64,000 nt of DNA. It comes from Medicago truncatula. Its lineage: Eukaryota > Streptophyta > Magnoliopsida > Fabales > Fabaceae. The DNA is taken from positions 54,275,762 through 54,339,761 of the forward strand of contig NC_053042.1 of the NCBI RefSeq assembly GCF_003473485.1, read 5' to 3'. Below, piece by piece: positions 18,336 through 40,939 of the stretch. The notes under the pieces were generated by a model. The model saw only the letters and a program-made list of their open reading frames with translations. It ran no database searches and was not told the DNA's origin. Position 1 is the stretch's first letter, and every line of letters starts with the position of its first letter. Made by a program: the position numbers and the translations under genes.

Positions 18336-18619
18336 TTTTTCGATTGGAGAATTAAAATGAGGAAAGGAAAATGGTTATTCTACTAGTGATGAATTGAATC
18401 TGCAAAAATAAAAATAAAAATGAATCGCGTTGTTAGGAACTATTGCATCTGGAATGAGGTAGGCAATGTAGTGATTGTAGTAGAGAGATTACCAAAGCAG
18501 GATCTGAGATTCGGATATGAACTGAATCGCAAAGAGAGAGGTTAGCGTCACCGAGAAGTGAAGAGAAGGAGGATCAAAATTGAAGCAAGGCAGGATGGGG
18601 GTTAATTGGGGAGATAAGT

Positions 18620-19242
18620 GGAGAAGGCTTTGATGGGCTTTGGAAGAATTATGAATAAATCTTCAAAAAAAATTGTTGAATGAATAAATTTTCAATTATG
18701 AATAATGCTTTAAAAAAGCTACTTTCTCAAAAACCGTGAGTTTTCCTATGTCTCCCTTCATTTTCTTCCCTCCCTTTCCAAAGGCCTAATGGCGGAAGCT
18801 TTTGACTCCAAGTTCAACATTATTTAACGATCGAACATCACCAAAGCCTTACAGATTGGTTACTCCATCGTGAGAATAATTAGTCAATGCATCACTTTTC
18901 TTTCTATACTTATACTCGCGTAATTAGTTTGCTTTAACCATCATCGATCTCAATTCCCTTCCAAATTAACAGCATACTATATTATAGACCCCAATTAATG
19001 GAGAACAGAGGGGAACGGGTAAGACAACTTTCCACATTAAATATACATGTTATTATTATATAGATAGATAGAAACAATACACACTGGTTTAAGTTCCTAA
19101 CTAATTAGGATGAATCTAAATTATGAACCATGGTAACAAATGATGCAACATGGCGAATAAAAGCCAGTTGAAAAAAGAAAAAAAAAACCGCAACTGTGAA
19201 AGCAAAACTGTCATAGAATCACAAAGTCGGAAGGATAATCAA
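18620..19242. other. Spacer between delta-COP copies A and B
   Basis: No gene seen. The sequence is repeated in arm 2 (about 31930-32550). It includes the 3' flank of copy B, a short TAGA run (about 19061) and the upstream flank of copy A. Confidence 0.5.
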
Positions 19243-22200
19243 TCAGACAACTTGATAGTTTTCCGTTATCAGCTGTGTTCTCTGAGCAAATTTGGGCGGA
19301 TTACCACCCTTTAGCGGAATGATGTTTGTAACCTACAAAGACAAGCCAAAAACATTAAGTCAACTGTAGTCCATCATTGTACACTTGAATGAAGTGATAA
19401 TCGACACCTAAACATGTATAATATTTCCTTGCTAAAAAATCTCTAGTTCAATGCATGCGTCAGTTTCAACCAGATCATCTCAAAAAAGCACTATGCATGT
19501 ATGCTCACAAATAAAGTCGGATGAAAAAAAATAAATCATCAGACAAACCTTCAGGTCACTAAATGTATCAGTCGCTATAAAACGAACTGAAATGGGAAAG
19601 AATGCTGATGCATCTGCTTGAGGAACAACAAACTCCAATGACCCACTGCCAAATATATTAAGATCAGACAACAAATCTAAAAATACAAAGATCAAAATCT
19701 AGCATAAGTAAGCTCTAAGACAACCATTCCAATTTTAGCATACCTGCGATTTGAATTATCAATCAGCAGGACAGACCACTCCAAAATGGAATTCCTAGAA
19801 TCATACCTGCAAAGCCAATTTTATTAAGGAACTATAAAGAGAGTAAGAATTTAATGTACGGACGTGGAGTAAAATTATTTACAACCATAATAAAATATTA
19901 ATGACTAAACTCGTGATCTTAGGAGAGGAGGAGGAGTAGGAGAAGGGGAGGGGGAAGCAGTATTAGTTACACAGAGCATCATAATTCATGCAAATTTAGT
20001 CAGATAATTCAAGATTGCAGACCATTTACACGAGTAACAGATAGTATTATTTCCAATACAAAACGACTGGTTTATTTACTGCAGACTTCAACATGAAACG
20101 CAAAAAACAAGACTGTCCCCGACACTTATTCAAAGGAAGAAAATAAAAATAATTTCCACACCTCCATTCCCCATCAATTTGACTAACAGATGGAGCTTCT
20201 CGGAGAGCTGGAAAGGGTACTGAGATCACAACATTGCGCAGATCAAACATTGATGAAGCCTCATATTCAATGTTGACATAAGTTTCATTTCCAGCAGAAG
20301 AGGGCCAACAGTTGACTGCATTATACATGTATTGCACACTGTAAGTTATAAATACATGAAAACAAAATAGCAGCCAACAACAACGAAATTTAGTTTGCCT
20401 TACTTGTCAGTGGCACCATTGACTCATCAGTGCTTTGCATTCTCCACCTTAAAAGACCAACACCTCCGGCATCACTGGCTTGACCAGTGGGGAAAGGCCT
20501 ATTTGGATCCTTCAGACCTAATATATTTTCATTGGCAAATAATTCTTTATTCATGTTAGGATGTGTCTTGAAAGAGACGGCTTGATTCTCACCAGTCTGA
20601 ACCTGCAAAAACAAGGCACAATATGTAAGTACATCTCTTTTAATTGTTCTCCTGAATAGATGTTTTCATTCAAAACAAATTTCAAGGCATGAGTAAACCT
20701 AGGCTGGGAATCTCAAGAGTCAAGACTGAAGGATGGTAGGAGAAGACAAGTATACAAATAATCCGAAGTAGTATTTTATTACAAAAAAATGGGGAAAATC
20801 TCCCTGGACTGCAACCTTCCTCCCGATGGCCCCAATTCTCTCACAAGAAAATACTGATTAGCACTATTTGAGTCTTACATTAAACACTAAAACATAGGCT
20901 GGTTTTTAAACATTACTCGTTTGAAAATTAGCTCATAATTAACCTTCAATATTACTGACAACTGCATTTACAGAGGATGCAAACTTTGACAAGAGTATAT
21001 GAGGCCTAAATAAAGAAAACAGAAAAAAAATTAAGCAAGACACAAGTTATTACACTACTCATGTCAATAAATAACTACTTATCAAAAAAGACTGCTCAGG
21101 TTATGCAAAGCAGCAGTCAAATGGACACGCATGGAGTTAGTTAGAGATAGTGAGAATGTAATACCTGAACTTGAACATGTCCATCCTCTTTGTTAAGAAT
21201 TTGGAGAGACAATGTTCCTTGAACATCAAAATTACTAAGACCACCATCTCTTTTCAGTGTCACGTTTAGTTTCTCCTCCACAGTTAAAGTGATGGGATCG
21301 ATAAGTGGTGGGGCAGCTGACCGAGACGGGCCAAGTTTTGGCTGATCAACTTCAAGAATAACCTCACCTTCTGCTTTCAATGATTCCAAAAACTGGTTTG
21401 TCTTTTGAGATTTACCAAGCTTCATACCAAGGCCCTTTGGCAGAGCAGTGGCAGATGCAGTTGGACGACCTAAGGAAGAGAATAGGAGAGTAAATAAATA
21501 AAAATGTTACTCTTTATTCAGAAACATGTTAAATGAAAAGGTTACACTTTGGTTCAGCAATCTCCCCCTTTTTGATGGGGACAAGCATATGCATTTTGAT
21601 GAACAAGTGCTGCCTGTATATTGCATGCTTCGTTGCCATTCTGAGTCATTGCATTTAAAAGCATTCTAGAAGAATTTGTGGGAATCTATGATAACCAACC
21701 TTTAGGCTTGGTAGAAAAGGAATCAACATCAGTGCTCGATCCAAAACCAGAGCCACTTCCAAAACCAGTTCCGGTGCTAGATATGCTCATGTCACTAAAG
21801 CTATTTTCAATTCTTCCAGATCCCATTGACGTTAAAGGACCAAATCCTCCTTTATCACCTCTATTCTTTTCAATCTGCACGATAATTGTATTAAATTCAA
21901 TTGAAAGTAAAAACATAAATAAATAAATAAATAAATAAATAGTAGTCTCTCCAACCAAACCTTGCTCTTATCAATCTCACTTGCTTTCCGCTTCATTAGA
22001 TCCTTAGTTTCATTGACCTTGCTCTGCTGAACCAGCTTATAAAGCTTCTCTTCATGACTTTCCATCTCACAGTATTGCTTAACTTGTGCAACGGTCACAT
22101 TTTCCTTGTGACCAAGAAAGATGACTTCATCAAACGCAAAAATCAGATCAAAGGCATGTTTGCAGATACCCTCTTCATCAAGGGAATAAGAATATTCAGG

Positions 22201-24473
22201 GACCTAAAATTATTGAGTAATGAACTGAATAAGAAAACATTTTGGCACAAGTTTAATTTAAGGGCTTAAAAACTGATTCAAAAAGGTAAAATACCTCCTA
22301 CTAAAAATCATTTCATCCATCCTAAACCTTCCTAAAAAATTCAAGGAACTAAAAGCCATGTTTAAATGATCATAATTGTCCCATCAAAACCCCATGAAAA
22401 ACACCAATATGGCAGGAAATTAAGACGACAAGGCCCAAAATTCTAGATTCAGGCCAGCAAGTCATACCAAGTTAATGACAGAACCCATAATTCTCCCAAC
22501 AATATGAATTGACCAATCAATTGAAAATAAATAGATTTGGGAACACAAAATGTCAAATTTGAAGGATCACAGAAATAATACCAGTTTGGAGAGAAGTCTC
22601 AGAGTATCTAAATCGTCCATTATATTGCTCTGTTTGTTCGTTACAAGAAGCAAGTATAGAGCTTCTATTGGCTGATAAACATAGCGGATGTTCTCAGTCT
22701 CGATATATGTGTGTTGTTTCCCAGTACCTATTAACTTGGGAAACGCAGCTAGAAGTCCCTCAATTCTTATCAGAGACATATCCCCAAACTGTCTAGAGAC
22801 TAGCACTGTAATCAAAGAGCAAAATATTTATTGGCACAAGGGTATGGGTGTTGAGTCCGTAAATATTTAGGCACAATCAAATAAAACATCAATTCAGGAA
22901 TAAGCGGTTGTTTATTAATTTAAAAGATTGTCTTGAATGTCAAGGGGAAAAAAAATACTCCAAATAATAAGATGTAATACTAAGGAATCAGACACACAAA
23001 AAATATGGAATAATTAAAATAGGCGACTCCATGGTCTATGTTGCTGACATAAAGTGATGAGCAGATAGATTATTCAGATAAAACTTAAAAGAAGTCATAT
23101 AGCAAAATATACATTTTAGGTTTCCTGACTAAGGCTTGTAACATGTATTAGTTATCTCAACATCAGTGACCATGTTTTAAACCAGAGGAAAAGAAATAAC
23201 TTCATTAGCTGATTTTCCACATGTTCAACCAATGCACATATTCCTGGAAAGGTACTGCCCATCCTGAAAGTAATTTCTTATATATTCCCCGTCTCAAAAA
23301 CACATTGTCTTGTGTTTCATAAAAATGTGCACATGTCTAGCTTAAAGTTAACTATAGTTCTGTCAAAAAAAAAAAGTTAACTATAGCTAAAGGTTGCATC
23401 TCTAAATTGCAGTTCAATGAATTATACAATACAATGAGTACAAATGGAAAGCAAGCTAGACACAGACTATTGGTGTTAATTATTCTAAAATTAAGGGTAA
23501 AAAACCACAAGTTAGTGAATGGATGCAAAGAACTCACCTTTGCCAGATTTGCCGACAATGGATGCAGCAAGCACAACCTGTACAACAAACAAAAACAAAA
23601 ATTGAAGAAGAAAAAAATAACTGTACAAATAGTAAATCAGGAACAGATACGAAACTTCTATATTTCCTAAGCCAAGAGATGTTTGCTTTTCCAATTTACT
23701 AAAGGGAATGAGCTTGTGACCTTTTAGGATGAAATCAAACATTAAATGTTACATAACTAAATTCGGGATAAAAGAAAATCAAACATTACGAAATAGAAAG
23801 CCAAAAACATGTAAAAAGAAACAGAAAATACAGGTTCCACACTCAAGTGAATTCTTCTTTTACCTAAACCAAAAACCATATTTTTTAGCTTCACCATTTG
23901 AGCCACACCCAGATGCCATTCGGCAAGAAAGTCGTTAAAACAATCTAGTTTGGCAGTTCTATCCTCCTAACTTTGGATTCCATCTTTTTTCGCTCAACAT
24001 GAGGCCTAGGCCAACTATAATGTAATGCTACGAGGAAAAATAATGCCAGACCACATCACTCCACACTGATAATGGTTCCAATTTCGGAGGATTGGTTTTG
24101 CCATCTAGAAAGGGTTAGCGGCGCAGTTTGTGCCCGTTTACATGTAATTCTCGAGGATTACACTAAACATCGAAATGCATGTAGCAAAAATAAAGACGAG
24201 CAACAAAACACAACACGGGAGGATAAGCTATAGCAGAAGATTCAAAATTACTGGTAGCGAAATTATTATACAAGGATTTCAATTTTAAAGCATATCAATA
24301 TATTCTGGGAAATTCTTTGAAACCGTAATTTTAGATCACGGGTGGGTTAAACTCATGCATCAAACAATTGTAGGAAGAGAATTGTGGTATGAAAATGAAG
24401 ATAACATAAGAAGTGAAATTAATAGATACAATTAATTAAAGTGCAAAGAATAAGAAACAATAAGCGATACCAT
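19243..24473 (-). CDS. Coatomer subunit delta, copy B
   Basis: Coding exons in gene order: 24471-24473 (ATG only), 23538-23577, 22582-22805, 21961-22203, 21700-21874, 21165-21469, 20404-20602, 20162-20315, 19744-19806, 19549-19645 and 19243-19332. All borders are GT/AG, and the sum is 1,593 bases or 530 residues (Arabidopsis delta-COP is about 527). It has an N-terminal longin-like domain (about 1-140), a charged linker (KASEIDKSK), a Gly/Ser-rich hinge, and a C-terminal mu-homology domain (from about 270) ending ENYQVV. A 5' untranslated intron (24511-24623) precedes the start exon. The frame is open, but B carries replacements at conserved sites where C keeps the usual residue: V22G, R26L, E108D, S118F, P238L, S404A and L431F. 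A Mutator-like element sits about 140 bases upstream of the leader intron donor, so the promoter is displaced. B may be on the way to losing function. Confidence 0.92.
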
Positions 24474-25910
24474 ATTTGCGGTTGATCTGTGAAATTGTAT
24501 GGAATTGAATCTGCAAGTGAAAGAAAAAACAAAGTTTAGATCCGTGAGTGAGATATGCAATGGATTGCAATTGAATGGATAAGAATAGCGAAGAGAATAT
24601 GAAAATGAGAAAGAAGATTTTACCGAACGCGATGAGAGATTGGGGAGAGTAGATCTGAAAGGATTGTGAGTGAAATTGGGGAGGAAGCAATGGTGCAGTG
24701 AAAGACTGAGGCGGGGCTCAGGTTGATCTACTGGAAGCAAAATATGATGCTTTTGGATTTGAGAATTGTTGTTCCCATATTTAATAAGGCTTTGGCACAC
24801 GAGTAATTTACTTTTTCGCCTCTTCGGCAATAATCCCTTTAGCAGCTATTGTCGAGGAATTAGAAATTTCCGGCTGCAGTTAACTGTCAAGGAAAACCTC
24901 GGGAGTTAACTGCCGAGGAAAACAAGCACAGTGAGTTTTGCATGATTCTTTCTACAACATTTTCAAGCCATTTTTCGGCCAGTTTTTACCTGTAATTAAA
25001 GCACAACATTTTGAAAGGCAAAATAATTCATACAACATTGAAACTCGGACATAAACAAAAAAAAACACAATATTTTTTACAATTGTCCATATTTAAATTA
25101 AACCGACATTTGGTTCAAATTACACAAACGTTTGAAATTCAAATCACAAAAAAATATTGGCGCAAATGCACAACTTAATTAAACCAACATTTTTATACAT
25201 TAAACAAAGTTAAAAATCTCATGGAATTAAAAGTAATGTCATCAAAGTACAAATATACAAATCAATGTCATGAAAACACCAAAACTAAAAAACAAGTCCT
25301 AAAAAACAAAATACTACTATTGGCCTGGTCCTGGTCCTGCTGATGATGTCTCCTCCTCGGCCTCTAGCCTCGCCTCCTGGTCAAATCGGCGCGATCTGCT
25401 CCCTCATATGGCTCATGGCCTGAAACCACAGCTGAGGGGTCATGCTCATGACCTCCTCCTGGCCTAACTGCGCACCAGCGTAGGCAACAGCGCCACAAAC
25501 CATGTCATAGGTGTCAGGCGAGCTTCTCGCCTCATACCGCTCCCACTGCTGTGCAATGATCTGCTCTTCATTTGCTGGCCTCGGAAGATCTCCTGGAAGA
25601 GGTTGCAAGATCTGAGGGTGAGACACCCTGGTGTACCATAGCACATAGTCATCTGCTATCCGCCATGTCTGCTCTCCTGCCTGTTCACCCCAATCAGCCG
25701 CCTTAAGTGTGTGAGTGCGGAAGTCGACGAACGCCTACACCATACTCCTGCCCACAAATTTTGTACGCATCCTGCTGCGACACACCCAAGTACCTCATAA
25801 GTAGTGCCGCTCCCTCATGTCTCGGCATCTTCTTCCCATGGCTCAACATCCGCGCCCTCAATCTGAAGATGCGTCAGACATACGACATCATCCAAGGTCA
25901 CGGTCATCTC

Positions 25911-28366
25911 TGTAACGCCCCAATTTTATTTAATTATTATTGGTTGATTTAAAGTCTTTTTATAAATGATTATAAATAATTATTGTTGATGTTGTGGTGT
26001 GATGTATTTTTATTAAATGATTTATTTTTATTATTTAATAGAATAAGTGGAGAAATAGGATTATTTTGGAGTTTGGGGTTAAATTCGAATTAATAGAATT
26101 AAGAGGAGTTAAGGAATATTTGGGAGGTTACAATAGGTTGGGAAAATAGAAACTGAGAATCAGTTTTACGTACAAACAGAAGTTTTGGGAGAAGAACAAG
26201 AGAAAGCTATGAGAAGAGCCAAGTGGGAGAATCTGATTGTGTAAGAGCTTTGTTCATCAAAACTAAGGTAAGGGTGAGGCTAACTCTCAATTATTATAGT
26301 TTGTATGATTCTGATTTTGATTTAGCAAGGGGTTTGTGGTTAAATTTGGGAATTTAGGAATTGGGATTAGGTTTTGATTATTGATTAGGTTAAATTTTGA
26401 TTTTTGAAATTTGATTTTTTTTTTGGTGAAAAATGTGCAGAAATGGTAACAGCAAGGGAAAAACTTGCTAGAAGTTCGCTATCGGCGAAACTCCCTGTAA
26501 CAATTTCGCTATTAGCTAACTTTTCTCCATTATCGAAATTGCCCAGTGACAGCATACCCTATTTTATGTTCTTGCGTCTTTTTCACACATTTCTATTTTG
26601 AATTAGCCTTTGGTGTAAACATGAAAGTTGTAGATAATTTTGTTAGCTTTCCAATGGCTTTGGTTTGACTTGAAAATGATTTTTGGTTTTTGAGATATGA
26701 TGAAAATACTCCAAGGAGGTCTTAGTGAAATCTTATGAAAATTCAGCATAACCGTTTCTAAGTTAATCCAAAACTTATGGGATAATTCCAACCCTCCAAA
26801 CTAGAAGTACCATGAGTTCAATTAAGGTGTTTGAGAGTATTTAACTCATGTTGTGAGTTGATCTTGGGATATGAATGGAAGTTGTTAATAAGTTATAGAC
26901 TTATAGAGAGCCTGAATCAAATGATTTATGATTGTTAGTTAGTTTAAGATATTTAGATTATGAGGAAAATGTATGATATAGAAAATATCGTTGTTTATAT
27001 CATTCAAGTTGTTACTATTAATATTGCTATGTTGCAAGTGGCTCATGTTGTTGTCTCTGCTGTTGTTGATTATTAATATCATTGAGTTAACCAAGTTGTG
27101 GAGTAAGTCATAATTATTTATGCACAATTGTTGTTGTCGTTGTCTACGTTGTCGTTGATGTTTCTGAGTTGTATGTTGATATACACAAAGTTGAGTCCAT
27201 TGCATACTTATAAACTGTTGAGGGCTTATGCCCTGAAATGTTTATCATTCAAACTGTTGAGGGTTTATGTCATGGAATGCCTTGTCATTCAAACTGTTGA
27301 GGGCTCATGCCCTGGAATGCTTTGTCATGCAAACTGTTGAGGGCTTATGCCCTGGAATGCATTGTCATTCAAACTGTTGAGGGCTCATGCCCTGGAATGT
27401 TTATCATTCAAACTGTTGAGGGCTCATGCCCCGGAATGCTTAGTCATTCAACACGTTGAAAATGGTACCACATGCATATTGTAGTTGTTGTTGTTATTGG
27501 TTGCATCGTCGTTGTCATCGTTGTTAGTTGAGTTGTCGTTGTCGTTGTTGTTGATCGAGTTGTTGATCGAGTTGTTATAATTGTTGTTGATCGAGTTGTT
27601 GTCGTTGTTGTTGATTGAAGTAGTAAGTGTTATTAAAGTTGAAGAAGTATGAACATTATTGTTGAATATATGTTGCTGATTATGTTGTGTTGTTCATGTT
27701 ATTATGAGATGATGATTATGTTGTGTTGTTTATGTTGTTATAAGTTGATGTTTATGATGTGAGGATTTATGATATTATATGATGTTGTAAATAATGTGAT
27801 GCATATGAGTTAATGATGATTAGAGGTTTAATGAAGCACTATAGGAGGAATTATTATTATTAATTGATGAAGTTTAAGTTGTTAAATGCATTTGATGGAT
27901 TATATACCTATTATTGTTGTTTGTGAATCTCACTCCTTCTGCTTGGAAATGTTGTCCTTCGTATGGGTAACTTGCAGGTGATCCAGAGTAGTTGTTGTTA
28001 GATTGCTGTCGTGAGTGGACTATCTCTCACGTGTGTCTTTAGGTGCTCTGATACGTAACGAGATGGGAAATATTGTCGTTGTATTCATCATTTCTTATGT
28101 ATCATTATAAACCTGTTGGCATTGTTGAAAAAAATCCTTAAAGATTATTTATGTTGAGGCCTTTGTGCCAGATTTTATTGAGGTTATTTATTGTTAAATG
28201 ATTGAAAAATATTCCGCTGCGAAGTATTAATATCTTTATCAAAGTTGATTAATAAATAGCATTTTATTCTATTTAAGAATTTTTGAAAAGCAGTGTGACA
28301 TTCCCGTTTGTTGTTGAACTCTGATTTATTTTATCAATTACGTTGTTGAAAAAACGGAGTGTTACA
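25911..28366 (+). mobile_element. Solo LTR, Ty3/gypsy (TGTAAC family)
   Basis: A fossil solo LTR of 2,456 bp running from TGTAACGCCC to GAGTGTTACA. It is flanked by a perfect 5-bp duplication ATCTC (25906-25910 and 28367-28371). It shares blocks with the LTR at 43761-45799: AAGGTAAGGGTGAG near the start, and TTCTGCTTGGAAATGTTG then AACTTGCAGGTGATC near the end. It therefore belongs to the same chromovirus-type family. No internal region remains, implying LTR-LTR recombination. It is absent from the matching place in arm 2 as far as that arm extends, and its intact target duplication suggests a fairly recent insertion. Confidence 0.88.
27217..27453 (+). repeat. Tandem repeat of about 40 bp inside the solo LTR
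   Basis: Six units, each starting GTTGAGGGCTYATGCCCTGG followed by AATG and a TCATTCAAACT spacer. Each unit holds a small inverted repeat, GGGCTYATGCCC. Related units with GGGCTTGATGCCCTGG occur at about 45019-45150 in the LTR of the remnant at 40940-45799, so the array is a family trait. Confidence 0.88.
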
Positions 28367-28639
28367 ATCTCCCCCAAGGGCATGTGAAAGGTGCTGGTCT
28401 CGGGATGTCACCTCTCGCATAGAGTCATCAGTAGGGCATGAGGCACTGTGGCGTAGCCCAGGTAAACCAAGTCAGGTAACCCGCTCTGCCTAAGCGGATC
28501 CCAAAACCAATCATGATTCCCGTTTGGGCGTCCGAGACTCAAGATCTTAGCCCCATGATTAATCGGTTTTACCACACGGAGCTTACGAACCTGAAATAAT
28601 AGACAAATAAACATAGTTTAAACAAACAAACATATAAAG

Positions 28640-28925
28640 AAAATAATTAAACATAAAGAAAAGAATTAAAAAAAACACATATAAAAGTGAATATAATAAT
28701 TAAACAAACACACATATAAAAAAAAAAATTCAACATAAAGAAAAAGCATTTTAAAAAAAAAACATATAAAAGTGGATATAATAATTAAACAAACACACAT
28801 ATAAAGAAAATAATTAAACATAAAGAAAAAGCATTTTAAAAAAACATATAAAAGTGGATATAATAATTAAACAAACACACATATAAAGAAAATAATTAAA
28901 CATAAAGAAAAAACATTTAAAAAAA
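28640..28925. repeat. Tandem repeat of about 85 bp in the PMD gene intron
   Basis: Between the first two exons of the decayed PMD gene, an A-rich unit containing ACATATAAAAGTGGATATAA, AACAAACACACATATAAA and CATAAAGAAAAAGCATTTTA recurs three to four times with a period near 83-85 bases. Non-coding. Confidence 0.8.
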
Positions 28926-30400
28926 TTACACTTACGTTATCTGAATTATACCAAAGCGGCAACGCCACATGATTGGCATAAGAGTGCAGCAAAGATAAGT
29001 CTGTCGGTCCTCCAAGAAAGGGAGGGTCCACAGGTAACACCTCTGGGGCAGCAGCTGCTGCAATGTCATCATCATCTCCTACATGCTGCTGCTGTAGTAT
29101 ATGATCCTGGTCATACCCACCATCAGTCACATCGTGGTGTACCTGATCCTGATAATTCAAGTACTCCATCTGCCGGCTCGGGTCAACCACATGCGACTCT
29201 TCAGATTGTGTAGCCTGAGAACCCTCCTGCGAACTCCATGAACCATCTCCCCTCCGACCTCTACCCCTCTTTGGGATGTGGCCGCTCTTCCTCTCCCTAC
29301 GGTGGCTCTGAGTCATCGCACGCCTACCACCAATCATCTTAGATGGATCAATGAGGTCCTGATCGGCCATATCTACACAAAAAATAATAAAATTAACATC
29401 ATTTCCATAACCTAATCAAACACATTAAATCTAAACTAAACATAAACATAATCAAACTCATTAAAAGTACAACAATGAACATCATTTCCATAACCTAAAA
29501 TCATTCAATATAATCAACATTACAATAAAAATTATGTCCATCATTTCCATAATAACCTAAACATCATTCATTATTTAACATACACTTAATCATTTCTATA
29601 CACTTAATCATTTGTGTCCATCATAATTCTCGTAACCTACACTAACTAAAAAATCAATATACACTTAACCAAACTATAATTAACATCATTACTACACCAT
29701 TTCCATAACCTAAACTAACTACATAATCAATAAAATTGTCATTGAGGCATTTTATCAAACACTTTGTGTGCAGAGCATAAAACATATTCAAATTGTGTTC
29801 ATTTGCCACCATTCAAAGCCACATTATGATTTAAACAACATAGGCAACAACTACATTCATTTATCAATTCTTAAACTACACATGCAATCATCAAATTGTC
29901 AATTTTAAAATCAACCCTAACCACATGCAAACTACTATAATTTTTTTTAAAAATCAACCTAAACAAATTAACATTATCATTAAAATGATTGACACAACTT
30001 ACTTGTGATAATGTGCAGTTGATTTGCTTGCAATTCGTGAAAATGACTTTGGTGAAGATTGGAAAGAATTTGAGAAGTTTGGAGAAGATTTGAAAATGGT
30101 ATATGTTTCTGTTTCTGCGTTTCTTTATGTTCAGAAAACCTCGGCAGTTAACTGCAGCCAGATTTCAAATTTTTAACTGCCGAGGGGGCAAAATCGTATT
30201 TAACTAGTGCGACACATTCTTATCAAATGTGGGAACAACCATTCTCTTTGGATTTTGAGTGCGGGAGGAAAAATGCACTTCAAACACACTCATTTTGAAA
30301 CGAATGGAGTATTAGTTTTAACTTTTTTTGAAGGAAATGTCCTTGTTTTTAGTTGATTAATGAATGGTTATCGTTAAATTAAACGGTTTCAAAATAAAAT

Positions 30401-31030
30401 AAATTAAAGTTAAAACTTTAGAAGCAAATCAAACAGCAACATAAGCTTGCACGAGAAGATCGCCAGTAATTTGGACAAATCAAGCTAAAAACTAATGTAG
30501 AAGATCATATTTATATAAAACGAATTCAATTTTAATGACACATCAACATATATTACGAAATTCTCATATCACAAATTAAAACTATATAATTGGAGTAACT
30601 AGAGTACCAATATAATTCTATCAACATGAATAAACAATTAAATAGTGAAATAAAGAGGAAAAACATAAAGTAATGAGGGTGAAATGGTTAAGCAATGCAA
30701 AACACGATGAAGTAGTGAAATATGAAAGTAGCGGTGAAGACGAAGATGAGTTACCATTTTTTCGTTTGGAGAATTGAAATGAGGAAAGAAAAATGGTTAT
30801 TCTACTAGTGATGAATTGAATCTGCAAAAATAAAAATAAAAATGAATCGCGTTGTTAGGAACTATTGGATCTGGAATCGAGGTAGGAAATGTAGTGATTG
30901 TAGCAGCGAGATTACCAAAGCAGGATCTGAGATCCAGATATGATCTGAATCGCAGAGAGAGAGAGGTTAGCGTCACCGAGAAGTGAAGAGAAGGAGGATC
31001 AAAATTGAAGCAAGGCAGGATGGGGGTTAA
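30401..31030 (-). pseudogene. Duplicated 5' fragment of delta-COP copy A
   Basis: Near-identical to 17979-18608. It carries the same start exon (ATG at 30755-30757, minus strand, followed by a GT donor), the leader intron and part of intron 1. There is no downstream coding exon, so it cannot make a coatomer protein. Its presence shows that the duplicated block started inside intron 1 of copy A. It could still act as a promoter fragment. Confidence 0.8.
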
Positions 31031-31337
31031 TCTATCTCAAGTCCGGTGTTGCTGCCCTTTTTATTTAATTTAAAGGGTATGCGTGGATCATCCAATTGAA
31101 ATTCTTTATTTTTACCGCACACTCAATATTCACTCAAAACCCCAAGATCTAGACCAGAACATATAAAAAAAAAGATAACTATGATAGTATTAAGAGAAGA
31201 GGGATAATTCTTAGTTGACATCGTGGTCGATGATATTGACCAACCATAATGTCACAAGTGTATAAAAAACAAAAATAAGAGAAAAAAGAAAGAGTGGTGA
31301 AAAGTTGACATCTTTAGGTAGAATACCACCCTTAAAG

Positions 31338-31373
<36 letters not shown>

Positions 31374-31930
31374 CAACGGATGAAAGAGAGGTGTAGTTTT
31401 AAGGTGAAATTATTAAGATGTTCATGCCACATAGGGGTGTGCATGAGTGGTATACTAAAAAATGTGTCAACCAATAATTACTTGCGAGAATATGTTTTTT
31501 ACTTAATCTTTAGTTTAATTGGGGAGATAAGTGTGTAAACTAGTCTAACCAAATTGAATTTGTTAAAACATGGTATAAGAAAAGTTTGAGCTTGACTTGT
31601 TAAACACATTTTTAACTTCAAACTGTCTTTTCAATCATGTAAATTTTTCTTGATTTCAAACGATTGAAAAATATGTGCACTAATGAAAGAAAAAAAATTA
31701 TAAAAATTTAAATTTTAATAGAAGAGATTAAGATAAGTTCGGTGGACCACCTCATACTGAATTGGAATGTTGATGAATCATGATTTTTATTTTTTACCAC
31801 TCAATCCACCATAAAATCAAATTTAATTAGACGGGGGAATGGTGATTAGGCTCCCTAACTTACATAAAATTTTATTTTCCTTCACCAAACAAAAATCTTC
31901 CAATACGGAATAACTCAAAACAATGCACTG
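31031..31930. other. Arm 2-specific insertion with (GA)15 microsatellite
   Basis: Arm 1 lacks this sequence. A short shared phrase (TTAATTGGGGAGATAAGTG at about 31515) interrupts it, so it may be two insertions or one insertion with local duplication. A GA dinucleotide run spans 31342-31371. No coding frame and no recognisable transposon ends. Confidence 0.6.
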
Positions 31931-32550
31931 GAGAAGGCTTTGATTGGCTTTGGAAAGCTACTTTCCCTATCTTCAAAAAAAAATTGTTGAATGCATAAAT
32001 TTTCAATTATGAATAATGCTTTTAAAAAGCTACTTTCCCAAAAACCGTGAGTTTTCCTATGTCTCCCTTCATTTCCTTCCTTCCCTTTCCAAAGGCCTAA
32101 TGGCGGAAGCTTTTGACTCCAAGTTCAACATTATTTAACGATCGAACATCAACAAAGCCTTACAGATTGGTTACTCCATGGTGAGAATAATTAGTCAATG
32201 CATCACTTTTCTTTCTATACTTATACTCGCGTAATTAGTTTGCTTTAACCATCATCGATCTCAATTCCCTTCCAAATTAACAGCATACTATATTATAGAC
32301 TCCAATTAATAGAGAACAGAGGGGAACGGGTAAGACAACTTTCCACATTAAATATACATGTTATTATTATATAGATAGATAGAAACAATACACACTGGTT
32401 TAAGTTCCTAGCTAATTACGATGAATCTAAATTATGAACCATGGTAACAAATGATGCAACATTGCAAATAAAAGCCAGTTGAAAAGAAAAAAAAACCGCA
32501 ACTGTGAAAGCAAAACTGTCATAGAATCACAAAGTCGGAAGGATAATCAA

Positions 32551-35500
32551 TCAGACAACTTGATAGTTTTCCGTTATCAGCTGTGTTCTCTGAGCAAATT
32601 TGGGCGGATTACCACCCTTTAGCGGAATGATGTTTGTAACCTACAAAGACAAGCCAAAAACATTAAGTCAACTGTAGTCCATCATTGTACACTTGAATGA
32701 AGTGATAATCGACACCTAAACATGTATAATATTTCCTTGCTAAAAAATCTCTAGTTCAATCAATGCATGCGTCAGTTTCAACCAGATCATTTCAAAAAAG
32801 CACTATGCATGTATGCTCACAAATAAAGTCAGATGAAAAAAAATAAATCATCAGACAAACCTTCAGGTCACTAAATGTATCAGTTGCTATAAAACGAACT
32901 GAAATGGGAAAGAATGTTGATGCTGCTTGAGGAACAACAAACTCCAATGACCCACTGCCAAATATATTAAGATCATACAACAAATCTAAAAATACAAAGA
33001 TCAAAATCTAGCATAAGTAAGCTCTAAGACAACCATTCCAATTTTAGCATACCTGCGATTTGAATTATCAATCAGCAGGACAGACCACTCCAAAATGGAA
33101 TTCCTAGAATCATACCTGCAAAGCCAATTTTATTAAGGAACTATAAAGAGAGTAAGAATTTAATGTACAGACGTGGAGTAAAATTATTTACAACCATAAT
33201 AAAATATTAATGACTAAACTCGTGATCTTAGGAGAGGAGGAGGAGTAGGAGAAGGGGAGGGGGAAGCAGTATTAGTTACACAGAGCATCATAATTCATGC
33301 AAATTTAGTCAGATAATTCAAGATTGCAGACCATTTACACGAGTAACAGATAGTATTATTTCCAATACAAAACGACTAGTTTATTTACTGCAGACTTCAA
33401 CATGAAACGCAAAAAACAAGACTGTCCCCGACACTTATTCAAAGGAAGAAAACAAAAATAATTTCCACACCTCCATTCCCCATCAATTTGACTAACAGAT
33501 GGAGCTTCTCGGAGAGCTGGAAGGGGTACTGAGATCACAACATTGCGCAGATCAAACATTGATGAAGCCTCATATTCAATGTTGACATAAGTTTCATTTC
33601 CAGAAGAAGAGGGCCAACAGTTGACTGCATTATACATGTATTGCACACGGTAAGTTATAAATACATGAAAACAAAATAGCAGCCAACAACAATGAAATTT
33701 ATTGACTTACTTGTCAGTGGCACCATTGACTCATCAGTGCTTTGCATTCTCCACCTTAAAAGACCAACACCTCCGGCATCACTGGCTTGACCAGTGGGGA
33801 AAGGCCTATTTGGATCCTTCAGGCCTAATATATTTTCATTGGCAAATAATTCTTTATTCATGTTAGGATGTGTCTTGAAAGAGACCGCTTGATTCTCACC
33901 AGTCTGAACCTGCAAAAACAAGGCACAATATGTAAGTACATTTCTTTTAATTGTTCCCCTGAATAGATGTTTTCATTCAAAACAAATTTCAAGGCATGAG
34001 TAAACCTAGGCTGGGAATCTCAAGAGTCAAGACTGAAGGATGGTAGGAGAAGACAAGTATACAAATAATCCGAAGTAGTATTTTATTACAAAAAAATGGG
34101 GAAAATCTCCCTGGACTGCGACCTTCCTCCTGATGGCCCCAATTCTCTCACAAGAAAATACTGATTAGCACTATTTGAGTCTTACATTAAACACTAAAAC
34201 ATAGGCTGGTTTTTAAACATTACTCGTTTGAAAATTAGCTCATTGTTAACCTTCAATATTACTGACAACTGCATTTACAGAGGATGCAAACTTTGACAAG
34301 AGTATATGAGGCCTAAATAAAGAAAACAGAAAAAAATTAAGCAAGACACAAGTTATTACACTACTCATGTCAATAAATAACTACTTATCAAAAAAGACTG
34401 CTCAGGTTATGCAAAGCAGCAGTCAAATGGACACGCATGGAGTTAGTTAGAGATAGTGAGAATGTAATACCTGAACTTGAACATGTCCATCCTCTTTGTT
34501 AAGAATTTGGAGAGACAATGTTCCTTGAACATCAAAATTACTAAGACCACCATCTCTTTTCAGTGTCACGTTTAGTTTCTCCTCCACAGTTAAAGTGATG
34601 GGATCGATAAGTGGCGGGGCAGCTGACCGAGACGGGCCAAGTTTTGGCTGATCAACTTCAAGAATAACCTCACCTTCTGCTTTCAATGATTCCAAAAACT
34701 GGTTTGTCTTTTGAGATTTACCAAGCTTCATACCAAGGCCCTTTGGCGGAGCAGTGGCAGATGCAGTTGGACGACCTAAGGAAGAGAATAGGAGAGTAAA
34801 TAAATAAAAATGTTACTCTTTATTCAGAAACATGTTAAATGAAAAGGTTACACTTTGGTTCAGCAATCTCCCCCTTTTTGATGGGGACAAGCATATGCAT
34901 TTTGATGAACAAGTGCTGCCTGTATATTGCATGCTTCGTTGCCATTCTGAGTCATTACATTTAAAAGCATTCTAGAAGAATTTGTGGGAATCTATGATAA
35001 CCAACCTTTAGGCTTGGTAGAAAAGGAATCAACATCAGTGCTCGATCCAAAACCAGAGCCACTTCCAAAACCAGTTCCGGTGCTAGATATGCTCATGTCA
35101 CTAAAGCTATTTTCAATTCTTCCAGATCCCATTGACGTTAAAGGACCAAATCCTCCTTTATCACCTCTATTCTTTTCAATCTGCACGATAATTGTATTAA
35201 ATTCAATTGAAAGTAAAAACATAAATAAATAAATAAATAGTAGTCTCTCCAACCAAACCTTGCTCTTATCAATCTCACTTGCTTTCCGCTTCATTAGATC
35301 CTTAGTTTCATTGACCTTGCTCTGCTGAACCAGCTTATAAAGCTTCTCTTCATGACTTTCCATCTCACAGTATTGCTTAACTTGTGCAACGGTCACATTT
35401 TCCTTGTGACCAAGAGAGATGACTTCATCAAACGCAAAAATCAGCTCAAAGGCATGTTTGCAGATACCCTCTTCATCAAGGGAATAAGAATATTCAGGGA

Positions 35501-37774
35501 CCTAAAATTATTGAGTAATGAACTGAATAAGAAAACATTTTGGCACAAGTTTAATTTAAGGGCTTTAAAACTGATTCAAAAAGGTAAAATACCTCCTACT
35601 AAAAATCATTTCATCCATCCTAAACCTTCCTAAAAAATTCAAGGAACTAAAAGCCATGTTTAAATGATCATAATTGTCCCATCAAAACCCCATGAAAAAC
35701 ACCAATATGGCAGGAAATTAAGACGACAAGGCCCAAAATTCTAGATTCAGGCAAGCAAGTCATGCCAAGTTAATGACAAAACCAATAATTCTCCCAACAA
35801 GAAGAATTGACCAATCAATTGAAAATAAATGGATTTGGGAACACAAAATGTCAAATTTGAAGGATCACAGAAAGAATACCAGTTTGGAGAGAAGTCTCAG
35901 AGTATCTAAATCGTCCATTATATTGCTCTGTTTGTTCGTTACAAGAAGCAAGTATAGAGCTTCTATTGGCTGATAAACATAGCGGATGTTCTCAGTCTCG
36001 ATATATGTGTGTTGTTTCCCAGTACCTATTAACTTGGGAAACGCAGCTAGAAGTCCCTCAATTCTTATCCGAGACATATCCACAAACTGTCTAGAGACTA
36101 GCACTGTAATCAAAAAGCAAAAGATTTATTGGCATAAGGGTATGGGTGTTGAGTCCGTATATATTTAGGCACAATCAAATAAAACATCAATTCAGGAATA
36201 AGCGGTTGTTTATTAATTTAAAAGCTTGTCCTGAATGTCAAGGGGTAAAAAAATATTCCAAATAATAAGATGTAATACTAAGGAATCAGACACACAAAAA
36301 ATATGGAATAATTAAAATAGGCGACTCCATGGTCTATGTTTGCTGACATAAAGTGATGAGCAGATAGATTATTCAGATAAAACTTACAAGAAGTCATATA
36401 GCAAAATATACATTTTAGGTTTCCTGACTAAGGCTTGTAACATGTATTAGTTATCTCAACATGAGTGACCATGTTTTAAACCAGAGGAAAAGAAATAACT
36501 TCATTAGCTGATTTTCCACATGTTCAACCAATGCAAATATTCCTGGAAAGGTACTGCCCATCCTGAAAGTAATTTCTTATATATTCCCCGTCTCAAAAAC
36601 ACATTGTCTTGTGTTTCATAAAAATGTGCACATGTCTAGCTTAAAGTTAACTATAGTTCTGTCAAAAAAAAAAAAAAGTTAACTATAGCTAAAGGTTGCA
36701 TCTCTAAATTGCTGTTCAATGAAGTATACAATACAGTGAGTACAAATGGAAAGCAAGCTAGACACAGACTATTGGTGTTAATTATTCTAAAATAAAGGGT
36801 AAAAAACCACAAGTTAGTGAATGGATGCAAAGAACTCACCTTTGCCAGATTTGCCGACAATGGATGCAGCAAGCACAACCTGTACAACAAACGAAAACAA
36901 AAATTGAAGAAGAAAAAAATAACTGTACAAATAGTAAATCAGGAACAGATACGAAACTTCTATATTTCCTAAGCCAAGAGATGTTTGCTTTTCCAATTTA
37001 CTAAAGGTAATGAGCTTGTGACCTTTTAGGATGAAATCAAACATTAAATGTTACATAACTAAATTCGGGATAAAAGAAAATCAAACATTACGAAATAGAA
37101 AGCCAAAAACATGTAAAAAGAAACAGAAAATACAGGTTCCACACTCAAGTGAATTCTTCTTTTACCTAAACCAAAAACCATATTTTTTATCTTCACCATT
37201 TGAGCCACACATAGATGCCATTCGGCAAGAAAGTCGTTAAAACAATCTAGTTTGGCAGTCCTATCCTCCTAACTTTGGATTCCATCTTTTTTCGCTCAAC
37301 ATGAGGCCTAGGCCAACTATAATGTAATGCTACGAGGAAAATAATGCCAGACCACATCACTACACACGGATAATGGTTCCAATTTCGGAGGATTGGTTTT
37401 GCCATCTAGAAAGGGTTAGCGGCGCAGTTTGTGCCCGTTTACATGTAATTCTCGAGGATTACACTAAACATCGAAATGCATGTAGCAAAAATAAAGACGA
37501 GCAACAAAACACAACACGGGAGGATAAGCTATAGCAGAAGATTCAAAATTACTGGTAGCGAAATTATTATACAAGGATTTCAATTTTAAAGCATATCAAT
37601 ATATTCTGGGAAATTCTTTGAAACCGTAATTTTAGATCACGGGTGGGTTAAACTCATGCATCAAACAATTGTAGGAAGAGAATTGTGGTATGAAAATGAA
37701 GATAACATAAGAAGTGAAATTAATAGATACAATTAATTAAAGTGCAAAGAATAAGAAACAATAAGCGATACCAT
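32551..37774 (-). CDS. Coatomer subunit delta, copy C
   Basis: Coding exons in gene order: 37772-37774 (ATG only), 36840-36879, 35880-36103, 35259-35501, 35006-35180, 34471-34775, 33711-33909, 33471-33624, 33053-33115, 32861-32954 and 32551-32640. All borders are GT/AG, and the sum is 1,590 bases or 529 residues. Domain layout as in copy B: longin-like N-terminus, hinge, mu-homology domain. C keeps the family residues at all seven sites where B differs (for example [15 protein letters not shown]). Its own changes are the loss of one Asp codon and an Ala-to-Thr nearby in PQAASTFFP, in a variable loop. The leader intron is 37812-37924. The Mutator-like element lies just upstream (from 38062), and beyond it arm 2 ends in retroelement DNA, so no native upstream promoter of this arm remains beyond about 140 bases from the leader intron. 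C is the best candidate for the functional copy in this window. Confidence 0.93.
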
Positions 37775-38297
37775 ATTTGCGGTTGATCTGTGAAATTGTA
37801 TGGAATTGAATCTGCAAGTGAAAGAAAAAACAAAGTTTAGATCCGTGAGTGAGATATGCAATGGATTGCAATTGAATGGATAAGAATAGCGAAGAGAATA
37901 TGAAAATGAGAAAGAAGATTTTACCGAACGCGATGAGAGATTGGGGAGAGTAGATCTGAAAGGATTGTGAGTGAAATTGGGGAGGAAGCAATGGTGCAGT
38001 GAAAGACTGAGGCGGGGCTCAGGTTGATCTACTGGAAGCAAAATATGATGCTTTTGGATTTGAGAATTGTTGTTCCCAACAAGGCTTTGGCACACGAGTA
38101 ATTTACTTTTTTGCTCTCTGGCAGTAACCCCCTTAGTAGTTACTGCCGAGGAATTAAAAATCCGGCTGCGTTAACTGCCGAGGAAAACCTCGGGAGTTAA
38201 CTGCCGAGGAAAACAAGCACAGTGAGCTTTGCATGATTCTTTCTAAAACATTTCCAAGCCATTTTTCGGTCAGTTTTTACCTGTAATTAAAGCACAG

Positions 38298-40242
38298 TGT
38301 AACACCCCGTTTCCCAAAATCAATTTAATTATAATTATAAAATCAGAGTTCCACATTAAACGGCATGTCACACTACAAAATATAATTTCTTAAATAGATT
38401 AAAACTAATTAACAACATCCTTCATTAAACTGCAGCGGAAAATTCTTTAAATTAAACTCCATTATCCAAAATAATCTTGGCATTAAGCCGCAACATAAAA
38501 ATCAACGATAAACATGGACTACGTTAACTTGTTCCAAAATTTGATACATAGGTAGAAATTTAAACTATAAATTCCATCCCACGCATCAGAGTCCTAGACA
38601 CATTGAGCCACCACCAACCTACTCAGGATCACCTGCAAGTTACCCATAGGAAGGGCAACATTTTCAAGCAGAAGGGGTGAGATTCACAACAAAATATAGA
38701 TAAAGAATACATCAATTGAATCTAACACCCTATCATAATTCATCCACATTATTATTAATTTCATAACATCATTTTCGCATATTATTAATAATATTAATTC
38801 ATACACCTCTCAACAATATATGCAACTTATCACCACTCCACTAAGACTCCTCTAAACTCCCATGCATGTGGTACCATAAATCAGGACCGTGACCCACACC
38901 GCTGTCGAATGGTTAAAGCATTCTCAACAGGACATAAGTCCTCACCACTACACCACTTTGAGTAACTAGTACTCCACCACTTTGAACGACTAAGCATTCC
39001 AGAGCCGAAGCTCTCCCACTGTTATGTTAATGCAACTAATCCCCATAGAGTATATCTACATACCAACCAACCTAGACATATACATATATATGATTCACCA
39101 ACCAACTTACACCTTTAAGGGAATTTAATTATATACAACACACATCAGTCAGCATCCATTCATCAAAACCAACTAAGCATCCAGGGAAATATATATCAGC
39201 ATACAAGCCATGCAATAATTCAACAAAATACACAATCCAAACAACAACAGAAATTAACCAACCAAATACTGGGCAGCTCGCCTCGCGAGCTCATCTACTC
39301 GCTATGGCGAGCTCAGAAAAACAGGTACTCGCCATGGCGAGTTGGAGGCGAACTCGAGGCGAACAGAAATATGGTGCTCTCGGGAAAAATGACATTTTTC
39401 TCACTCAAACCTCAATTCTAAGCTCCCTAATCATCTTTTACACTTAAAACTTGCTCTAGTCCTCTTAAAAATCATCTAGGTACACGAAACTACCCAAAAT
39501 ACGGCTTATAACAACTTTTTCAAAATCCAGATTTTCACAAGGCTACTCGCCATGGCGAGCTGTATCACTCGCGAGGCGAGCGATGAAGTTGTTCACTCGC
39601 TATGGCGAGCAATGGCTACTCGCGAGGCGAGCGATGAACTCCTGTACGGGCAGAATGCAGGTTTTTCCCAAAAATCCCATTTTTCCTCAAATCACTCCCC
39701 AAATTAGTTTACAGATATGCAATGAAAGGTTTTATGCACCCAGAACCCATTTCTACCCTCAATTCTATGATTCCTACACCCAAAACTCCTTAATCAACAA
39801 AAACCTAATTTCTCCCAAATCCTCACATAAACCTGTTAGAACACAATCAACATTCAGAATCTATATAATTGCGGTAAATCTCACCCTTACCTTAGAATTG
39901 CAGAATAAACACAGCAGAAAATGGTTCCTAGGCTCCTCTCCCTTGTTCTTGGTTTTCTCCCAAACTAGACTGTTTTCACGTAAAACAGTTTTCTCTATTT
40001 TTCTTTCCTTTTCTCAATTCCCAAAATGTAACCTCCCACTCCCTAATTAGCAATTAACTCCCTACTAATTATGTTAATTATTTCATAACCCCCAAAATAA
40101 TAATTAATCCTATTCTTATATTATTTTAATTATTTAATAAAATAATCACATAATAAATAAATATACACTACATAAATCACCAAAAATCACATAAATGACA
40201 CCACACAATTAAAAATAATTAAATAAAAATTAGAGTGTTACA
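38298..40242 (-). mobile_element. Solo LTR, Ty3/gypsy (TGTAAC family), reverse orientation
   Basis: A fossil solo LTR of 1,945 bp. On the minus strand it runs from TGTAACACTC to GGGGTGTTACA. It is flanked by a perfect 5-bp duplication CACAG (38293-38297 and 40243-40247). It shares the AAGGTAAGGGTGAG and TTCTGCTTGAAAATGTTGCC blocks (inverted) with the other two LTRs. Arm 1 has the empty site at about 25006, so it inserted after the block duplication. It contains a cluster of CTCGCCATGGCGAG-like palindromes at about 39276-39635. Confidence 0.88.
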
Positions 40243-40509
40243 CACAGCATCTTGAAAGGCAAACTAATTCATACAACATTGAAACTCAGACATAAACAAA
40301 AAAAAACACAATATTTTTTACAATTGTCCATATTTAAATTAAACCGACATTTGGTTCAAATTACACAAACGTTTGAAATTCAAATCACAAAAAAAATATT
40401 GGCGCAAATGCACAACTTAATTAAACCAACATTTTTATACATTAAACAAAGTTAAAAATCTCATGGAATTAAAAGTAATGTCATCAAAGTACAAATATAC
40501 AAATCAATG

Positions 40510-40939
40510 TCATGAAAACACCAAAACTAAAAAAACAAGTCCTAAAAAACAAAATACTACTATTGGTCCTGGTCCTGCTGATGATGCATCCTCCTCGGCC
40601 TCTAGCCTCGCCTCCTGGTCAAAATCGGTGCGATCTGCTCCCTCATATGGCTCATGGCCTGAAACCACAGCTGAGGGGGTCATGCTCATGACCTCCTCCT
40701 GACCTAACTGCGCAGCAGCGTAGGCAACAGCGCCACAAACCATGTCATAGGTGTCAGGCGAGCTTCTCGCCTCATACCGCTCCCACTGTTGTGCAATGAT
40801 CTGCTCTTCATTTGCTGGCCTCGGAAGATCTCCTGGAAGAGGTTGCAAGATCTGAGGGTGAGACACCCTGGTGTACCATAGCACATAGTCATCTGCCATC
40901 CGCCATGTCTGCTCTCCTGCCTGCTCACCCCAATCCGCC
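40510..40939 (-). pseudogene. PMD protein C-terminal fragment, arm 2
   Basis: An open frame reading [19 protein letters not shown] and then LPGDLPRPANEEQIIAQQWE, matching arm 1 at 25381-25652. The last part differs from arm 1 because of a small length difference in one of the two. It ends with a hydrophobic run that is probably not original. It is a truncated fragment of the transposon-borne PMD gene; no upstream exons remain in this arm. Confidence 0.75.

Follow-up and report, generated by a model that had tools for sequence, protein, structure and literature searches.

How a gene for a plant mobile domain (PMD) protein comes to lie between the inverted ends of a transposon that carries no transposase, and whether it is passive cargo there or a working part of the element, is the question raised by a stretch of 64,000 nucleotides of Medicago truncatula DNA (contig NC_053042.1; C1:54275762-54339761), hereafter the window. 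An element spanning window positions 24761-30246 combines inverted ends, an exact 9-bp flanking repeat and pieces of a PMD gene inside. Host PMD proteins are factors of silencing and gene expression that are related to transposon proteins. Searches of the genome, comprising 429,922,655 bases in 42 contigs, give good confidence that the element is a transposase-less member of a Mutator-like element (MULE) family with two genes, that it was moved in trans and that PMD is a selected accessory of this family.

The flanking copies of TTTGGATTT at 24752..24760 and 30247..30255, recognised by flank comparison as a target-site duplication (TSD), are identical over exactly 9 bp and not 10, with a chance of about 9e-6 for a 9-mer match at fixed places, which agrees with the identical 9-bp flanks described in an earlier note on this DNA. 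Terminal inverted repeats (TIRs) of about 130 bases, equally claimed there, have been recovered by end alignment as a left TIR of ~132 bp (24761..24892, plus strand), which lies outside the PMD 3' end and begins with GAGAATTGTTGTTCCC like the family, and a right TIR of ~108 bp (30139..30246, minus strand), which lies upstream of PMD exon 1, begins with GAGAATGGTTGTTCCC and includes palindrome half-sites at 30139 and 30175. The right end is thus shorter by ~24 alignable bases when compared in reverse complement with the left; the local alignment score is 53 versus at most 29 among 2000 shuffles, and the ungapped arms measure 69 nt (75% identity) and 24 nt (88%). A subterminal palindromic motif resembling CCTCGGCAGTTAACTGCCGAGG, with at most one mismatch per half, has been located by motif scan at 24897..24918. 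As the earlier note had it, the list of open reading frames (ORFs) of the element contains no transposase-like frame. Genome searches with the left and right flanks revealed no empty site: the left flank has three matches, the two duplicate copies discussed below and one weak match, and the right flank has nine, namely itself, a 98% match over part of its length that marks the opposite end of the duplicate, and seven that are weak and incomplete.

These ends have many counterparts. A 34-base end pattern with at most three mismatches occurs at 669 places in the genome, the reversed pattern at none. In the genome-wide searches for the two ends the best 40 of 375 and the best 40 of 580 candidates were scored, and the best 150 of 361 candidates for PMD exon 1 and the best 138 of 911 for the transposase (140 rows) were scored for the genes; given this scoring, and as 100 of the 669 places were used positionally, the spacing and pair counts given below are lower bounds. 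Ten two-ended copies have been read, the window element included, and eight of them show duplications identical by eye at 9/9 positions, namely TTTGGATTT in the window, TTAGAAAAT in locus L047, TAATTTGTT in L049, ATGTTTTTT in L053, AAAATTTTA in L054, TAAATTATT in L055+L056, TAAATAGTT in L060 and AAACCCAAA in L064, while L063 matches at 8/9 and L050 at 7/9; for L048, L059, L061, L062, L065 and L066 the sequence read stops short of the far ends. The TIRs of L047 share 95% identity across 119 bp. Nineteen facing pairs of listed ends enclose both genes in two cases, PMD only in three, transposase only in four and neither gene in ten, where 'neither gene' and 'no transposase' denote, here and below, none among the scored rows. 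With a TSD of 9 bp, within the 8-11 bp range of the Mutator-like superfamily, with TIRs and with a MULE transposase inside same-ended members, the window element belongs to a MULE family whose recognisable ends number several hundred in the genome. The assignment to Mutator-like elements proposed in the earlier note is thereby sustained, as is its idea of a family, with many PMD-bearing copies, exon 1 having been found at 149 other scored places in addition to the 669 places of the end pattern; neither of the findings named there as speaking against it, end sequences confined to this place or flanks belonging to a longer repeat, was made. At position 661 of L014 (C3:23.2 Mb) a family-like end precedes, by ~840 bp on the upstream side, the PMD match in a full-length gene of this type, one of a series of PMD genes at C3:23.03-23.27 Mb.

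The two-gene organisation of the family is seen in two complete copies with a perfect 9-bp TSD, L054 (C7:49520965-49529788; 8824 bp) and L055+L056 (C1:25674879-25686140; 11262 bp), both of which hold between the same ends, on opposite strands, a PMD gene of three exons and a MULE transposase, convergent and each reading inward. A transposase-bearing partner, for which the earlier note had recommended looking, is thus present, a MULE transposase having been found inside the same ends in L053, L054 and L055+L056. The transposase matches PF10551 (MULE) with E 8e-27 in L052 and, flanked by these ends, with 4e-26 in L053. Towards its N-terminus the frame in L053 matches AFT above the cut-off and FAR1 under its cut-off; OTU stays under the cut-off in L052 (E 0.0095), with a weak OTU match among solved structures (E 0.058), and a C-x-C ... 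C-x-C stretch reminiscent of a SWIM zinc finger has been noticed by eye only, the Pfam scans listing no SWIM. Position relative to the ends is regular for both genes: in 29 of the 30 PMD matches with a listed end (150 scored), the gene begins 831-931 bp inward of an end of the same orientation, and the transposase match begins 1342-1459 bp inside an end in 20 of 21 (140 rows), as compared to 0 and 1 cases, respectively, in a control for the same spacing on the wrong side. One of the 140 transposase rows lies no more than 14 kb from eight of the 150 scored PMD exon 1 matches, in convergent orientation for six of these, when about one pair is expected by chance (computed for 106 transposase rows). 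L053 itself carries the transposase only and, because its last kb is a 95% match to the PMD-side end of L055+L056, would most simply be read as having arisen from a two-gene copy by deletion. Elsewhere in the genome, open family transposase frames of 995 codons free of stops are located at C7:50639071, C2:220133, C3:4025977, C2:10690575 and C8:32762456; no scored PMD match lies within 14 kb of these five.

In the window copy, the PMD gene on the minus strand is broken. Exon 1 is open over 145 codons (28936..29370; ORF list and protein alignment) and shows 73-90% amino-acid identity to the 149 other places among the best 150 of 361 candidates. It is followed by the 5' part of exon 2 with one internal stop (28367..28590), by a 2456-bp insertion with TG...CA ends (25911..28366) which is not present in the relatives aligned and is flanked by the 5-bp duplication ATCTC (25906..25910 and 28367..28371), by the part of exon 2 past this insertion (25738..25910, from alignment to L051) and by the tail of exon 3, open over 117 aa in the ORF list (25381..25734) and homologous to exon 3 of L059 and L051. 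Judged by its ends and duplication alone, the insertion is probably a solo long terminal repeat (LTR). Compared to L051, ~809 bp are absent between the exon 2 part and the exon 3 tail (element positions 972/978 corresponding to L051 5524/6333), and the aligned codons include three stops, one of them in exon 2 and the others in exon 3. Since ~0.8 kb is missing, stops have accumulated and exon 2 is split by 2456 bp, the copy cannot make a full PMD protein; encoding neither this protein nor a transposase, it is a decayed, ordinary and dead member of its family. Neither of the two window fragments scanned matched Pfam. The PMD-type protein on the minus strand that the earlier note had recognised is nevertheless confirmed by the exon 1 alignments and by the PF10536 matches of the relatives L052 (E 9e-28), L048, L059 and L060, located in exons 2 and 3; the nested insertion, the internal deletion and a second copy in a tandem duplicate had escaped it.

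What the PMD gene looks like when intact can be deduced from L059, where three exons of 146, 248 and 256 codons are joined by GT-AG introns. Seventeen copies have been examined, of which four (L059, L062, L065 and L066) are open across the three exons and 11 have stops, frameshifts or gaps (the window copy, L047, L048, L049, L050, L051, L052, L054, L061, L055+L056 and L057+L058); in L060 two residues are missing from the match at the start of exon 3, and the stretch fetched for L067 is incomplete. The open share is biased upward by the choice of L059, L061, L062, L065, L066 and L067 for their few stops. In a genome-wide PMD search 46 matches cover model positions ~13-295 and 33 of these show just one TAA or TGA+TAA; these stops lie outside the exons in L059, L062, L065, L066 and L067, and four others of the 33 that were read (L048, L051, L061 and L057+L058) are broken elsewhere. 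In exons 2-3, the ratio of non-synonymous to synonymous divergence (dN/dS) is at most 0.45 in 49 of the 53 pairs with dS >0.2 (range 0.21-0.59), the pairs not being independent, and the pooled ratio of the respective proportions (pN/pS) is 0.38. Because copies are open and diverged pairs have low dN/dS, PMD is not random cargo. An ORF of ~112 codons beyond the PMD 3' end in the middle region (L048 5216-5656; also in L055, L057, L059, L061 and L062) had been considered as a third gene; it has no Pfam match in its L048 form and its pooled pN/pS is 0.85 (15 pairs with small counts, single pairs 0.19-3.84). This candidate was dropped on account of its near-neutral ratio and retained as a contrast to PMD; as it has also diverged less than the PMD gene, it is read as a caught or exchanged fragment.

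These data also bear on the proposal that the window element is a Pack-MULE, a non-autonomous element passively carrying a piece of some host PMD gene that it had captured. Such capture of gene fragments by MULEs has been published (PMC6446971), the window copy has only PMD pieces and no transposase, and 142 of the 150 scored PMD matches are without a scored transposase row within 14 kb. On the other hand, complete elements hold both genes within the same ends, and the PMD genes have three exons and a dN/dS well under 1. Family PMD proteins are furthermore only ~21-31% identical to 10 other PMD proteins of the genome (alignments of at least 200 residues) and hence not a recent copy of those, and in a tree of 15 rows of the genome's PMDs the five family rows cluster, with long-branch warnings. 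No close host parent was found among these 10 non-family PMDs, the genome list having 129 matches, and a search of solved structures with PMD exon 2 alone gave no useful match (best E 0.74). Given this low identity and the clustering, PMD is seen as an old partner and not as a fresh capture of the 10 compared, and the Pack-MULE explanation is considered highly improbable. The view of the earlier note that a non-autonomous family carries PMD as cargo is therefore to be corrected, PMD being not just that but the constrained second gene of two-gene elements.

The preferred reading of a two-gene family with dependent copies would proceed as follows. Complete members of 8.8 and 11.3 kb would have their two convergent genes each transcribed from its own end, one predicted to encode a transposase with a FAR1/AFT-like N-terminus and an OTU-like C-terminus, the other, in three exons, a putative PMD protein of ~650 codons. 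The transposase would mobilise in trans all copies with these ends, leaving 9-bp duplications, and PMD-only copies would depend on transposase supplied elsewhere; that the window copy was moved by the family transposase is suggested by its having the same ends and duplication as a partner that encodes one. Subsequently, this copy would have been duplicated together with its flank, have lost ~0.8 kb of PMD and have gained the solo-LTR-like insertion. In a position like that of mudrB in MuDR, the PMD protein would most likely aid the expression or mobility of the family.

What such aid might consist of is approached through the noncoding repeats. Palindromes or half-sites of the CCTCGGCAGTTAACTGCCGAGG type are found near both ends in all seven copies scanned and also mid-element in both two-gene copies, and within the 64-kb window all eight half-site matches fall inside the two element copies. 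A section of the middle array and the adjoining flank match L047, a PMD-only copy, at its distal end in all but the outermost 61 bases, as also seen with L054; PMD-only copies could therefore have arisen from two-gene copies through recombination of arrays, or two-gene copies through the opposite process, a fusion. As binding sites the arrays could serve the transposase or PMD. Enrichment of the hexamer GCAGTT is seen in all nine elements of the family tested, its count being reached in no more than 3 of 100 shuffles; no other hexamer is common to the family and the host DOWN motif CATGCAGTTT, which belongs to a gene needing MAIN/MAIL1 (PMC9899485). As a general word of PMD genes it has been rejected, being unenriched in a second PMD-bearing MULE family (4/4 loci) and at 5/5 other PMD loci. 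It is, however, enriched around another PMD-type gene, L033 (C3:21947067), with 6 occurrences versus 1.3 expected. The second family is represented by L035 (C5:31957536), L036 (C8:8562159), L037 (C2:30940834) and L038 (C6:29338627); L035 has a PMD gene in head-to-head arrangement with a transposase of MuDR type (DBD_Tnp_Mut plus MULE), and L036 and L038 have an N-terminal ORF similar by eye to that of L035.

It is tentatively conceivable that PMD is an anti-silencing factor, an option that the earlier note had also named; like VANC, it would bind the noncoding repeats of the element and lift silencing, hence the selection on PMD. This role would agree with the palindrome arrays, which occur close to either end and, in the two-gene copies tested, mid-element as well; VANC gives a precedent for it (PMC10398659), it has been suggested for MULE PMDs (PMC5418596) and it accords with the work of host PMD proteins in the silencing of transposable elements (PMC7156037); yet the arrays may be transposase sites instead, and the missing enrichment of GCAGTT in the second family argues against it. 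Carried further, PMD and transposase, largely on separate same-ended copies, might form a two-component system in which PMD, as a sequence-specific factor, acts in trans on the palindromic GCAGTTAACTGC arrays, located close to the ends of copies and mid-element in the long ones, and lifts silencing family-wide, a proposal which is distinctly unlikely. If true, PMD-only copies would persist by lifting silencing from the whole family, and the GCAGTT core shared with the DOWN motif of genes needing host MAIN/MAIL1 would mean that transposon and host PMDs read related DNA words. A role as a mudrB analogue, helping the transposase in integration or expression with no part in silencing, is to be regarded with similar reserve as the VANC-like role. 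The gene order of MuDR is convergent, as it is here, and the constraint on PMD fits such a helper; mudrB, likewise the second gene of its element, has been reported to be apparently required for integration (PMC6446971). Equally, PMD-only copies may be parasites of the two-gene copies in which PMD is without function and open merely because it is young, as the dS of ~0.03 of the PMD-only, two-ended L060 to L051 and L057+L058 would indicate. Alone this possibility, itself rather doubtful, leaves the low dN/dS at dS 0.2-0.5 unexplained, although not for every deep lineage has a two-gene partner been seen.

Several observations weigh against the preferred reading of a trans-mobilised element with a selected PMD gene. 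All five two-gene copies read (L051, L052, L054, L055+L056 and L057+L058) carry a stop or frameshift in one gene or both, so that any present-day activity is hypothetical, and three of the five have no recognisable transposase-side end in the stretch read. The transposase copies are too similar for a good selection test (dS 0.015-0.042), their pooled pN/pS is 0.64 and two of 15 pairs exceed 1. As to PMD, the 16 youngest pairs (dS <0.08) have dN/dS values of 0.35-0.99, and constraint may have been confined to two-gene ancestors. To the lack of GCAGTT enrichment in the second family is added that its sharing with the DOWN motif has a chance of ~0.017, calculated after the fact. Mobilisation in trans, PMD expression and PMD function are inferred only.

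An incomplete second copy of the same insertion is located in the window at 38062..40939 on the plus strand, in an apparent tandem segmental duplicate. The unit of ~12.4 kb (17975-30396) is repeated from 30397 onwards (30397-40939), 18619-25005 being 97.8% identical to 31929-38296 and 17975-18606 also matching 30397-31031. Independent insertion of the second copy was considered and ruled out by this tandem arrangement and by the 400-bp left flank, in which the two copies do not differ, although over the first 234 aligned bases of the element they are just 93% identical. The second copy has acquired its own, different nested TG...CA insertion (38298-40242, TGTAACACCCC...GTTACA) with CACAG on either side, and ends at 40939, downstream of which the sequence resembles by eye a Gypsy pol.

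Among the known systems, plant MULE groups 42 and 45-50 have been described with PMD, sometimes or often antisense, and a PMD ORF is entered in Table 1 for the groups MUDR, MUDRAVI2, MDR, MULE-Monocots and MULE-Solanaceae_1 (PMC6446971). These groups are alike in MULE transposase, 9-bp TSD, TIRs of tens to hundreds of bases and antisense PMD ORF, an arrangement which recurs here with PMD and transposase on opposite strands in the two complete copies and in six convergent pairs among the 150 PMD matches; they differ, by comparison of the table, in that a FAR1/AFT-like N-terminus and an OTU-like tail are unlisted for them, while the Jittery group (36) appears in that table with FAR1 and without PMD. 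MuDR of maize, with mudrA and mudrB, is equally a two-gene element, the second gene here being PMD (PMC6446971). Clade-C PMDs fused to MULE transposases have been reported from several grasses and Amborella with speculation about anti-silencing (PMC5418596), an idea restated later (PMC8616336); PMD is likewise found within a MULE there, whereas in the legume host it is a separate three-exon gene on the opposite strand. VANDAL elements of Arabidopsis share the combination of MULE, accessory genes and noncoding repeats, the latter being targets of the element's own factor there and possibly here (PMC10398659), and half of the VANDAL group has PMD and/or a domain of unknown function (DUF) (PMC6446971). 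Their ends, in contrast, are absent or short and degenerate, whereas those of the Medicago family are clear inverted repeats. MuTAnT, a MULE family of the same host, has the end mask GGGGTTTGCTAGAACA and TA-microsatellite targets, as opposed to GAGAATTGTTGTTCCC here (PMC4486113). Searches of the open-licence PMC literature, judged on titles and abstract openings, turned up no PMD-MULE family already described for Medicago or legumes. The family, in which ends number in the hundreds, PMD genes can be open, arrays look like targets and the two genes also occur on separate copies, offers a direct test of the benefit of PMD to a transposon. Since PMDs of MULEs are described in PMC6446971 and PMC5418596, the kind of element is already known; judged by the table of PMC6446971 and by these searches, what is new is the combination in this family of a separate three-exon PMD gene, a FAR1/AFT/OTU-like transposase and transposase-less PMD copies.

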